From Salinisphaera hydrothermalis C41B8 (GTDB lineage Bacteria; Pseudomonadota; Gammaproteobacteria; Nevskiales; Salinisphaeraceae): DNA of 64,000 bases. Made by a program: the position numbers and the translations under genes. The notes under the pieces are model-generated. The model did no database searches. It had not been told where the DNA came from and was given only the letters and a program-made list of their open reading frames with translations. The DNA is taken from the NCBI RefSeq assembly GCF_000732535.1, contig NZ_APNK01000012.1, positions 1 to 64,000 of the forward strand. Reading direction: 5' to 3'. Positions 398-5,571 of this stretch are shown here, piece after piece (the stretch's first letter is position 1; every line of letters starts with the position of its first letter).

Positions 398-2689
398 ATG
401 TCGTTCGATGTGCTGCCCACCCGCTGCTTTGTGTCGCTGCTGCTGGTCGCACTCGTTTGCGTTGCCACGCCGGCGACGGCTCAAAGCCTGGGAGGTCTCG
501 GACTGGGCCACGACCATCAGTCCAAGGCAGCCGATAAACCCGACCCGAAGCAGCTGAAATCCTCGCTCGACGACGTCATCGGCACGCTGGAGAACGACAA
601 GAAGCGCGCCGCACTGCTCAAACAACTCAAACAGTTGCGCGCGTCTACCCAGGCCGAAGAAACCCACGAGAACCCGATCACCGGCGCGAACGGCGGATTG
701 CTCGGCGCCCTGTCGGATTCGATCAGCAATCTCAGCAAACAAGCCAGGCAAGGCGAATCGCCCTGGGATATATGGCGACGCAATGCACGCAAGGCCGCAA
801 CGAACATGCGCCAGCTCTTCGTCGGCACGCAGCAACAGGCGTTGATCAGCAATGTCGCCGAAATCGCGTTCGGCCTCGCCATGCTGACCAGCGCACTGGT
901 GGTCATGACCCTGGCCGGACGCAGCCTGTTCGCGCGGCGAGGCTGGCCGGTCAAACTACCGCCGGAACCTCGCCCGTGGATGCTCCTGGCCCATTTCTGT
1001 CGCCGCGTGACCCCCTGGGTCGTGACGTTCGCCGCGCTGCTGGCGGCGATTCACCTCATCCAGCCTGCCGCGCCGGCCAGCGCCACACTCCTGGTTCTGG
1101 TCTATGTAGGCCTGTGCGGACGACTGCTGTCGACCGTGTTCGATGTCGTGATCGCCCTGTTCACGCGCGGGCATCGTCGTGTCGCGGTTTCGATTCTGCA
1201 TGACAAGGCCCTCGGGCCGCTGTTTTTCATCGGCGCGCTGGTTGCCTTCGGCGATGCGGTCAACAGCGCACGTCTGTCCGACCTGCTCGGCACCAACCTG
1301 GCGGACTGGTTGTCGGTGGTGGCCAACATGCTTGCCGGACTGGCGAGCGGCGCACTCATCCTGCGCATACGACGCCCCGTCGAGCACCTGATCCGCAACC
1401 GATCGCTGGCCAATCGCCGCGACCGGGGCGGTTTTCGTGAACTGGTGTCGATCAGCGCCCAGCTCTGGCATGTGCCGGCGCTACTGCTGGTCACCGCCTC
1501 GCTGGCCGCCATCTTCATTACCGGCGGCCAGGCACACGCCGCGTTCGCGCGCTCCATGATCTGCACGGTGCTGCTGGTTCTCACCTTCGTCATCACCGGC
1601 ATCATCCGACGCCAGCACGAACGCGCCGCCCGCCGCCCGCGCAAGAGCCCGTACGCCGGACGATTCCGCAATCTCGGCTATACCCTCGCGCACGGCGTCG
1701 CCTGGCTGGCCTTCGCCGAGCTCTCGGTCCAGGTCTGGGGTTTTTCGTTGTTCGGCATCGGCGGCCGGGGCGCCGTCAGCGGCGAAATCGGGCGCGCGCT
1801 TCTGGGGGTCGGACTGACCATCGTACTGGCCTGGCTGGTCTGGATCGTGGTCGATACGGCCATTCACCGCGCGCTGCATGGGCGTGGTGCCCACGGCCGG
1901 CGACGCAACACCAACCGTGCCCAGACCATCACGCCGATGATCCGCAACATGGCGCTGTTCGTGATCATCGTCGTGGCCGGCATCGCGGGCCTGGCCAATC
2001 TCGGGGTGAACGTCACGCCGCTGCTGGCCGGCGCCGGCGTCATCGGCATCGCGCTGGGCTTCGGCGCCCAGAGCCTCGTGGCGGATCTGATCACCGGTAT
2101 CTTCATTCTGATCGAGGACTCGCTGGCGGTCGGTGATTTCGTCGAGATCAACGGCTTCATGGGTACCGTCGAGGGGCTGAATCTGCGTGCTGTCCGCCTG
2201 CGCGATCTCGACGGCGTCGTGCATATCACGACGTTCTCGCATATCGACGCGATCCATAACATGTCGCGCCAGTTCGGGATTGCGCTGATCAAGATCCGCA
2301 TTCCGCACGATCTGCGTATCGACGATGCCATCGAGCTGATGCGGCGCACCGCCTCGGATCTGCATCGCGATCCGTTCATGCGCGGCTTGATTCGCTCGCA
2401 TCTGGAAATGCAGGGCATCCATGAATTCGATAACGGCTGCCCGATTCTGCGCATGCGCCTGCGCACCGCGCCCGAATACCAGTGGGACGTCTCCCGGGCC
2501 TTCAACCTCGCACTCAAGCGACGGATGGAAAGCGAATACATCAACCTCGGCGCGCCGCGTATGAGTGTTTCCATGGAAGCCGGCGGTGGTGCGCGCTACG
2601 ACAAACGAGGCAAGACCAGCGAAGATAGCGACACAACGGCTACCGTCGACTGGCCGACCGACAACCAGCCCTCGCCCGATCCGGGCTGA
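398..2689 (+). CDS. MscS-family mechanosensitive channel, YbiO-like
   Basis: Predicted inner-membrane channel that opens under osmotic downshock and releases solutes. I start at the ATG at 398, which gives 763 residues and a clear cleavable signal peptide (hydrophobic run, then ATPATAQS). An in-frame ATG at 215 would bury this signal behind a basic 61-residue extension. After a charged, helical periplasmic segment with Leu/Lys heptads (about residues 30-90) come several membrane spans. The MscS pore helix and beta domain lie near residues 535-600 (GAGVIGIALGFGAQSLVADL, then VGDFVEINGFMGTVE). The large N-terminal part and signal peptide resemble E. coli YbiO more than small MscS. The C-terminal tail is hydrophilic. 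The family is secure; the subfamily is my inference. Confidence 0.88.
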   Translation: MSFDVLPTRCFVSLLLVALVCVATPATAQSLGGLGLGHDHQSKAADKPDPKQLKSSLDDVIGTLENDKKRAALLKQLKQLRASTQAEETHENPITGANGGLLGALSDSISNLSKQARQGESPWDIWRRNARKAATNMRQLFVGTQQQALISNVAEIAFGLAMLTSALVVMTLAGRSLFARRGWPVKLPPEPRPWMLLAHFCRRVTPWVVTFAALLAAIHLIQPAAPASATLLVLVYVGLCGRLLSTVFDVVIALFTRGHRRVAVSILHDKALGPLFFIGALVAFGDAVNSARLSDLLGTNLADWLSVVANMLAGLASGALILRIRRPVEHLIRNRSLANRRDRGGFRELVSISAQLWHVPALLLVTASLAAIFITGGQAHAAFARSMICTVLLVLTFVITGIIRRQHERAARRPRKSPYAGRFRNLGYTLAHGVAWLAFAELSVQVWGFSLFGIGGRGAVSGEIGRALLGVGLTIVLAWLVWIVVDTAIHRALHGRGAHGRRRNTNRAQTITPMIRNMALFVIIVVAGIAGLANLGVNVTPLLAGAGVIGIALGFGAQSLVADLITGIFILIEDSLAVGDFVEINGFMGTVEGLNLRAVRLRDLDGVVHITTFSHIDAIHNMSRQFGIALIKIRIPHDLRIDDAIELMRRTASDLHRDPFMRGLIRSHLEMQGIHEFDNGCPILRMRLRTAPEYQWDVSRAFNLALKRRMESEYINLGAPRMSVSMEAGGGARYDKRGKTSEDSDTTATVDWPTDNQPSPDPG

Positions 2690-2721
2690 TATTGAATCGG
2701 CCCGGACACGCCAACGCGCAG

Positions 2722-3360
2722 CCGTCGAACCGGGATTGTCATCTGTCGCAGATTCGAATGGGCTTCGCTCAGGCCCAAAAAAACCCGCACGTATGGCGGG
2801 TTTTCAATATTTGGTGCGCCCGGCAGGATTATTCGCCGGCTACGCCGGCTCACCCTTCGGGCCCGTGCCGCTGCGCGGCCCGGTTCGGACTCGCGCCGCG
2901 AGTCCGTCGAACCTGGCTTGTTGTCTGTCGCAGGTGCGAATGGGCTTCGTTCAGGCCCCAAAAAAAACCGCACGTATGGCGGGTTTTCGATATTTGGTGC
3001 GCCCGGCAGGATTATTCGCCGGCTACGCCGGCTCACCCTTCGGGCCCGTGCCGCTGCGCGGCCCGGTTCGGACTCGCGCCGCGAGTCCGTCGAACCTGGC
3101 TTGTTGTCTGTCGCAGGTTCGAATGGGCTTCGTTCAGGCCCCAAAAAAAACCGCACGTATGGCGGGTTTTCGATATTTGGTGCGCCCGGCAGGATTATTC
3201 GCCGGCTACGCCGGCTCACCCTTCGGGCCCGTGCCGCTGCGCGGCCCGGTTCGGGCTCGCGCCGCGAGTCCGTCGAACCTGGCTTGTTGTCTGTCGCAGG
3301 TTCGAATGGGCTTCGTTCAGGCCCCAAAAAAAACCGCACGTATGGCGGGTTTTCGATATT
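2722..3360 (-). repeat. 183-bp tandem repeat array carrying the tRNA-Arg 3' end (tyrT/rtT-like)
   Basis: Directly downstream of the tRNA-Arg (reading the minus strand) lie three complete 183-bp units, at 3178-3360, 2995-3177 and 2812-2994, plus a diverged partial unit at about 2722-2811. Each complete unit ends with the same 19 bp as the tRNA 3' end including CCA (plus-strand copies begin at 2812, 2995 and 3178; the real tRNA tail begins at 3361). By eye the three units differ at only two single bases. Each unit also contains a GC-rich 9-bp-stem hairpin (ggactcgcg/cgcgagtcc) and an oligo-T terminator. The E. coli tyrT locus has the same plan: 178-bp repeats that include 19 bp of the tRNA tail and give rise to rtT RNA. 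Small RNAs from this array are inferred, not shown. Confidence 0.85.
3325..3353 (-). terminator. Intrinsic terminator after tRNA-Arg, repeated in every 183-bp unit
   Basis: On the minus strand a short hairpin (CCGC, 7-nt loop, GCGG) is followed by eight T residues. It lies just downstream of the tRNA and recurs 183 bp apart, near 3142, 2959 and, in slightly altered form, 2776. The stem is only 4 bp plus a bulge, so readthrough into the next unit is plausible. Confidence 0.6.
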
Positions 3361-3437
3361 TGGTGCGCCCGGCAGGATTCGAACCTGCGACCTTCGGCTT
3401 CGGAGGCCGACACTCTATCCAGCTGAGCTACGGGCGC
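3361..3437 (-). tRNA. tRNA-Arg (anticodon CCG)
   Basis: The minus strand folds as a complete tRNA: acceptor GCGCCCG paired with CGGGCGC, D-arm GCTCAGCTGGATAGAG, anticodon stem TCGGC/GCCGA with loop CTCCGAA, so anticodon CCG reading the Arg codon CGG, T-arm GCAGGTTCGAATCCTGC, discriminator A and an encoded CCA. CGG is a common codon in a genome of this GC content. The repeats downstream duplicate its last 19 bases. Confidence 0.97.
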
Positions 3438-3558
3438 TTGCGAGGTGCAAAGGATACGCGGTGCGGCGGCCATCGTCCATCGGCGCACGCAACGAATTCA
3501 TGCCGGGCCGGATTGTCCGCGAAAAGACCACTCTTTCTCCGAACCCGACCGCCGAACA

Positions 3559-5571
<2,013 letters not shown>

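Follow-up and report, generated by a model that had tools for sequence, protein, structure and literature searches.

RtT-related tandem units behind a tRNA-Arg gene of Salinisphaera hydrothermalis: a structured core cassette seated in a copy of the tRNA T-loop

A tRNA-Arg(CCG) gene of Salinisphaera hydrothermalis C41B8 is directly followed by a tandem array in which every full unit ends with a piece of the tRNA itself, and this raises the question of how the array relates to the tyrT repeats of Escherichia coli and their RtT RNA, which follow the same plan. The DNA analyzed, hereafter the window, comprises 64,000 nucleotides (positions 1 to 64,000 of contig NZ_APNK01000012.1). The original prediction, read from these letters alone, had placed three 183-bp units and a remnant behind the tRNA-Arg(CCG) gene, which was confirmed by ARAGORN, the Rfam tRNA model and TRF. 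The latter reports positions 2722-3379 with a period of 183, 3.6 copies, 97% matches and a score of 1239, a repeat signal far above chance. In Rfam scans of the window, at the gathering threshold as well as at E values up to 10, the tRNA alone was significant and correctly placed. The features are given below, with core scores referring to R1, a covariance model built from 12 cores of this genome alone.

3361..3437, minus strand: intact host tRNA-Arg(CCG) gene (ARAGORN; Rfam tRNA, 73.4 bits)
3326..3353, minus strand: terminator-like hairpin with T8 right behind the tRNA CCA, present in every unit
3178..3360, minus strand: unit 1, 183 nt
3293..3307, plus strand: inverted copy of the tRNA-Arg T-arm in unit 1 (GTCGCAGGTTCGAAT on the plus strand; repeat search)
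3197..3273, minus strand: core cassette of unit 1, splitting the T-loop copy at G57/A58 (R1, 103 bits)
2995..3177, minus strand: unit 2, 183 nt
3014..3090, minus strand: core cassette of unit 2 (R1, 108 bits)
2812..2994, minus strand: unit 3, 183 nt
2831..2907, minus strand: core cassette of unit 3 (R1, 108 bits)
3178-3196, 2995-3013 and 2812-2830, minus strand: 19-nt tRNA tails (A58-A76) of units 1, 2 and 3
3110-3124 and, with one or more changes, 2927-2941 and 2745-2759: further inverted T-arm copies (repeat search)
2722..2811 (to about 2722), minus strand: remnant of a fourth unit with hairpin, inverted T-arm copy and GGTTCGACGG, the core being lost

Unit 1 consists, in this order, of the terminator-like hairpin, the inverted T-arm copy, the 5' strand of the T-stem with TTCG, the core and the 19-nt tRNA tail. 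As had been predicted, the last 19 nt of every full unit repeat the 3' end of the tRNA; this tail reads AATCCTGCCGGGCGCACCA and corresponds to tRNA nucleotides 58-76, CCA included. The prediction had further assigned a hairpin and an oligo-T terminator to each unit. Of this, the hairpin with T8 is indeed present, but it is weak, and a terminator scanner reported no terminator at its threshold in the window array. The inverted T-arm copy (15 nt in the units) had been overlooked, as had five further tRNA loci with cores in the same genome and the homology of the core with RtT. Genes for an MscS-type channel and for a UvrD/Rep helicase neighbor the array; the flanking genes of the window further include those for a Mg-chelatase-like protein and an ammonium transporter. 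An open frame of 405 aa (window 2565-3782, plus strand) crosses the array only since the period is divisible by three and is no evidence for a gene.

The likeness to tyrT had been recognized correctly, and it is closer than initially believed, while the repeat and E. coli rtT had wrongly been called unrelated. Applied to a 4-kb stretch surrounding tyrT in E. coli K-12 (L121), model R1 reported exactly the four Rfam RtT copies with 32.7-43.8 bits (E 1e-9 to 5e-7), followed by a next-best match of 11 bits. In the reverse direction, which had been proposed as a check, the Rfam model RF00391 (RtT; gathering cut-off 45 bits) finds tRNA-Tyr units scoring over the cut-off (up to 75 bits) in 8 of 14 Salinisphaera genomes, and it places the tRNA-Arg(CCG) units of four sister species slightly under it (35.5-43.6 bits); for the window's own units there was no match, either at gathering or at E up to 10. 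Intermediates form a continuum between E. coli RtT and units of the window type. Since the matches between R1 and RtT hold but the Rfam model misses the window units, these are relatives of RtT and not formal members: the homologous core with its fold, including the tandem GA, is there, and so are the tRNA locus and the closure of each unit with the 3' end of that tRNA, while the gathering score is not reached.

Window and E. coli tyrT repeats (RF00391) have in common the core fold, the core sequence and the tandem GA, as well as the insertion point in the T-loop, the 19-nt tail with CCA and the placement of tandem units right behind the tRNA. They differ in the host, which is a tRNA-Arg here and a tRNA-Tyr in E. 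coli, and in the 5' part of the unit, where the window carries the hairpin after CCA and an antisense to the T-arm 5' side, in contrast to the GGGGAAGGATGAGAA form of E. coli. Additionally, the window units fall under the Rfam cut-off and lack a Tpr frame. A Tpr-like basic peptide per unit, as known from E. coli tyrT-tpr, is not supported: frames in the window persist only since 183 is a multiple of 3, and unit lengths vary between loci (about 175-186 bp) and are not such multiples elsewhere; hence, no frame is conserved. In E. coli, RtT is annotated as an sRNA (rttR), and a tandem GA has been reported for it (PMC7657543). In Actinobacillus pleuropneumoniae, Arrc20 and Arrc21 are Rfam RtT RNAs adjoining tRNA genes other than tRNA-Tyr (Asn, Lys), and RtT RNAs of this organism were detected by northern blot (PMC4986893). 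Unlike the window units, they are reported to lie upstream of the tRNAs, with predicted promoters and terminators; the comparison made here is by published description.

The core itself is a cassette of about 77 nt composed of P1, P2, a small CCC/GGG hairpin and P3 with a tandem-GA step. In an alignment of 93 distinct cores (A3), modeled with T-stem, P1, P2, CCC/GGG hairpin and P3, 92.6% of the cells are paired compared to 72.7% in shuffles, and both partners vary in 24 of 29 pairs. Slid structures gave 31-41% paired cells on the same alignment, a control biased towards the chosen structure, as the latter was drawn with A3 in view. In P3, a Y-R pair encloses the GA steps (Y-GA...GA-R) and covaries between UA (44) and CG (32); together with the tandem GA, this Y-R pair corresponds to a motif described for RtT (PMC7657543). 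A hammerhead-like reading of YGAG..CGAR was dropped, as the CUGA turn is missing and the Y-R pair covaries.

The cassette is inserted between G57 and A58 in the T-loop of a copy of the tRNA 3' half. This split explains the shared tail length of 19 nt, A58 to the CCA end amounting to 3 + 5 + 7 + 4 nucleotides. An exact 19-nt match of the tail to the own tRNA was found in 87 of about 143 first units, and over 140 loci the tail agrees with the cognate tRNA in 15.5 of 17 positions, compared to 10.1 for other isotypes. The inverted copy of the tRNA 3' part, located between CCA and core, displays a similar specificity with scores of 13.4 for cognate tRNAs, 8.8 for non-cognate ones and 6.4 after shuffling (140 loci). 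As a universal feature, however, a stem between inverted copy and tail was rejected: an exact complement of at least 7 nt occurs in 39% of units versus 7% of shuffled ones, and tRNA-Arg units mostly lack it. A terminator-like hairpin separates tRNA and core in 44 of the 140 loci and in none of the 29 tRNA-Tyr loci; at some loci, such hairpins would limit the predicted ladder of RNAs with tRNA tails, which might compete for tRNA-processing enzymes.

Within the same genome, a search with the window array revealed further arrays behind tRNA-Arg(TCG), tRNA-Arg(TCT) and tRNA-Arg(ACG) as well as cores at tRNA-Gln(TTG), and the covariance model added a core at tRNA-Gln(CTG). When these loci are aligned, the common core begins after GGTTCG and stops before AATCC, while its loops and stems differ between loci by compensatory changes. 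The comparison across relatives, suggested along with the prediction, showed that sister species carry arrays, including a sister genome assembled in one contig (G007) with comparable ones, and that two other species of the genus (L030, L036) possess tRNA-Arg(CCG) without an array. A UvrD/Rep helicase gene also lies near tRNA-Arg(CCG) in two sister species, where the arrays have another unit length. Judged by this shared neighborhood and the arrays of the two sister species, the array is an old feature of the tRNA-Arg(CCG) locus. R1 finds matches in 14 of 14 genomes of the genus and in 27 of 85 genomes of the order. When 92 cores were arranged in a tree, calculated from few columns and with weak support, Salinisphaera cores mostly clustered by tRNA locus, which suggests that most insertions are old and that jumps are rare, with few recent ones. 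At two places (L012:2609-3034 and L082), an intact tRNA-Gln gene is preceded by a core-interrupted tRNA-Gln copy comprising promoter region and 5' part.

Beyond the order, a covariance model built from A3 (R2, E up to 1e-5) had matches in 133 of 369 gammaproteobacterial genomes, corresponding to 107 of 271 genera, and in 64 of 398 genomes of a phylum sample; these prevalences are lower bounds from searches with strict filters and about ten scored candidates per genome, and the E values are rough, the covariance models being calibrated on short random sequence. One more family rich in matches (f211) lies outside the class. It is probably zetaproteobacterial, since a pattern scan names Mariprofundus ferrooxydans, next to Thioalkalivibrio, Marinobacter, Alcanivorax, Idiomarina, Alteromonas and several enterics. 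The tRNAs beside cores comprise Arg, Tyr, Gln, Ser, Glu, Lys, Thr, Val and Trp. Phage and plasmid records yielded no credible core, the cassette being almost absent there. A viral contig (L237, IMGVR_UViG_3300050821_022867) carries a core behind tRNA-Thr(TGT); an open frame of 368 aa, tyrosine recombinase-like as judged by reading and not by profile search, is located about 190 nt past the opposite end of this tRNA. A pattern match on L238 was not upheld in the covariance-model search.

Several observations point to movement of the cassette. At 11 loci, excision of the core restores a recognizable tRNA; six to nine of these are clear isotypes (Gln, Glu, Ser, Val) and two are degenerate. Cores were also found in hsdS, the gene for the specificity subunit of type I restriction systems, in four genomes with E values of 1e-10 to 1e-15 (sites noted: L116:1629-1721, i.e., G047:C2, and L242-L244). 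In G047, the core (62 bits, E 1e-15) sits in frame between TKGL and NPDAPM, a mid-gene location seen in this single genome of 79% completeness; in three other genomes it lies near the start codon of hsdS at one common N-terminal site. The empty site of a relative (L242) reads GGGCCTGAATCCCGATG with the split point GGGCCTG^AATCCCGATG, and it resembles the T-arm GGGTTCGAATCCC, split at the same place. The hsdS insertions carry no duplicated tail. Cores away from tRNAs, with weaker scores, occur in G019, G023 and G051 as well. In G019 (L295-L303), a dispersed family with near-identical flanks and at least nine copies contains a weak RtT-like three-hairpin core (27-31 bits) and is possibly a larger repeat that took up the core.

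Copy number varies strongly in E. coli, where BLAST (E 1e-3) finds matches in 4695 of 5426 complete genomes at 1-14 places each; 731 genomes (about 13%) have no match to the K-12 inter-tRNA copy, absence here meaning no match at this sensitivity. Strain Z1323PEC0010 (L315, NZ_CP148282.1) has two tRNA-Tyr genes and no RtT, and its flanks after CCA equal the sequence after the 19-nt tails in K-12 except at a few bases. The two strains thus differ by the exact presence or absence of units, a comparison that gives no direction.

How, then, did the same plan come to stand behind different tRNAs? An independent origin on tRNA-Arg with unrelated repeat sequence, as implied by the convergent function originally suggested, could draw on the dissimilarity of window and E. 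coli units outside the core and on the silence of the Rfam model for the window. The RtT homology of the core and the identical 19 bp resulting from one insertion point speak against it, and with the reciprocal covariance-model matches, the same tandem-GA step and the continuum of intermediates it is scarcely tenable. Collapse or expansion during assembly, named beforehand as a possible refutation, is equally hard to credit: repeats are often misassembled and several cores are located at contig ends of draft genomes, but the array has unique flanking genes and unit-specific single-base differences, the one-contig sister genome has arrays, and complete E. coli genomes carry units. A REP-like element moved by a REP-associated tyrosine transposase (RAYT) would likewise be short, hairpin-rich, ORF-less and dispersed, an attenuator cluster of BIMEs has been noted as rtT-like (PMC2965389), and RAYT-type genes are present in 14 of 14 Salinisphaera genomes. 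The cassette, in contrast to REP and BIME elements, has several hairpins and the tRNA T-loop as its main site, RAYT flanks carry inverted repeats of another kind, and the 20 RAYT-type loci examined contained no significant core (best E 0.02), so that no RAYT link was found and this origin is very unlikely.

Two further explanations deserve more weight. T-loop crossover is a preference of some integrases, and units could be mini integrative elements or attachment-site scars, left by a tyrosine integrase with its crossover in the T-loop, the unit bringing a copy of the tRNA 3' end and so giving 19-bp direct repeats. As in such elements, a direct repeat of the tRNA 3' end bounds every unit and an intact tRNA is regenerated; units that are exactly present or absent between E. 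coli strains and the recombinase-like frame near the viral-contig cassette (by reading) would fit as well. Yet a unit has only about 180 bp and no integrase, and a single core with cognate tails on many tRNA species demands an unusually tolerant enzyme. The tail is not duplicated in hsdS, a scan of seven flanking window proteins revealed no integrase domain, and phage or plasmid records contain hardly any cassette, which together make this reading distinctly improbable. On the unlikely side, too, is a selected regulatory RNA acting on the stringent response or tRNA metabolism, each tRNA having gained its copy under selection. It agrees with the strong covariation, which could equally come from selection for RNA function, with the specificity of tail and inverted copy for the cognate tRNA, and with the Actinobacillus northern blots and a modulation of the E. 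coli stringent response, as cited in PMC4986893. Against it stand the E. coli genomes without a match and the wide variation in copy number, matches in only about one third of gammaproteobacterial genomes, insertions in hsdS and elsewhere, and possible terminators ahead of the core.

While the array is shown to be an RtT-related repeat, its history is probably that of an RtT-related structured cassette which moved between T-arm-like sites and was then multiplied in tandem, most likely as a hitch-hiker. The core-bearing tRNA loci restored by excision, the hsdS cores and the cores away from tRNAs argue for movement between sites of the form GGG-N4^AAT-CCC, mostly tRNA T-loops; on the other side, no enzyme was found, cores do not flank RAYT genes and no integrase lies by the array. 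A unit placed after CCA would be tolerated, since it leaves the tRNA intact. Via the 19-bp direct repeats, units may then multiply or be lost by unequal recombination, as suggested by their near-identity and by the copy numbers in E. coli. Where transcription reads through, tRNA-type processing might free an RtT RNA of about one unit with a CCA end, by analogy with E. coli and Actinobacillus, and this RNA would have at most a secondary part in regulation. A cassette that merely moves leaves the inverted T-arm copy unaccounted for; a template switch at a hairpin is one possibility.

The tyrT repeats and the rtT RNA, long regarded as a curiosity of E. coli, now take their place in a family that spans the class and has a defined insertion point, which explains the 19-bp tail and guides the search for the enzyme moving the cassette. 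E. coli strains with zero and with many copies represent natural experiments in this regard. As we propose tentatively and with slightly less than even expectation, RtT could be the known part of a wider class of mobile structured cassettes, tiny and free of ORFs, which occur in gammaproteobacteria and probably in zetaproteobacteria and insert precisely into T-arm-like hairpins, chiefly at G57/A58 of tRNA genes and also in protein genes of the hsdS type, by a mechanism unlike that of known transposons, introns and integrases. Should T-arms indeed be its target, the cassette would represent a novel type of mobile element, bound to a loop that is among the most conserved in biology.
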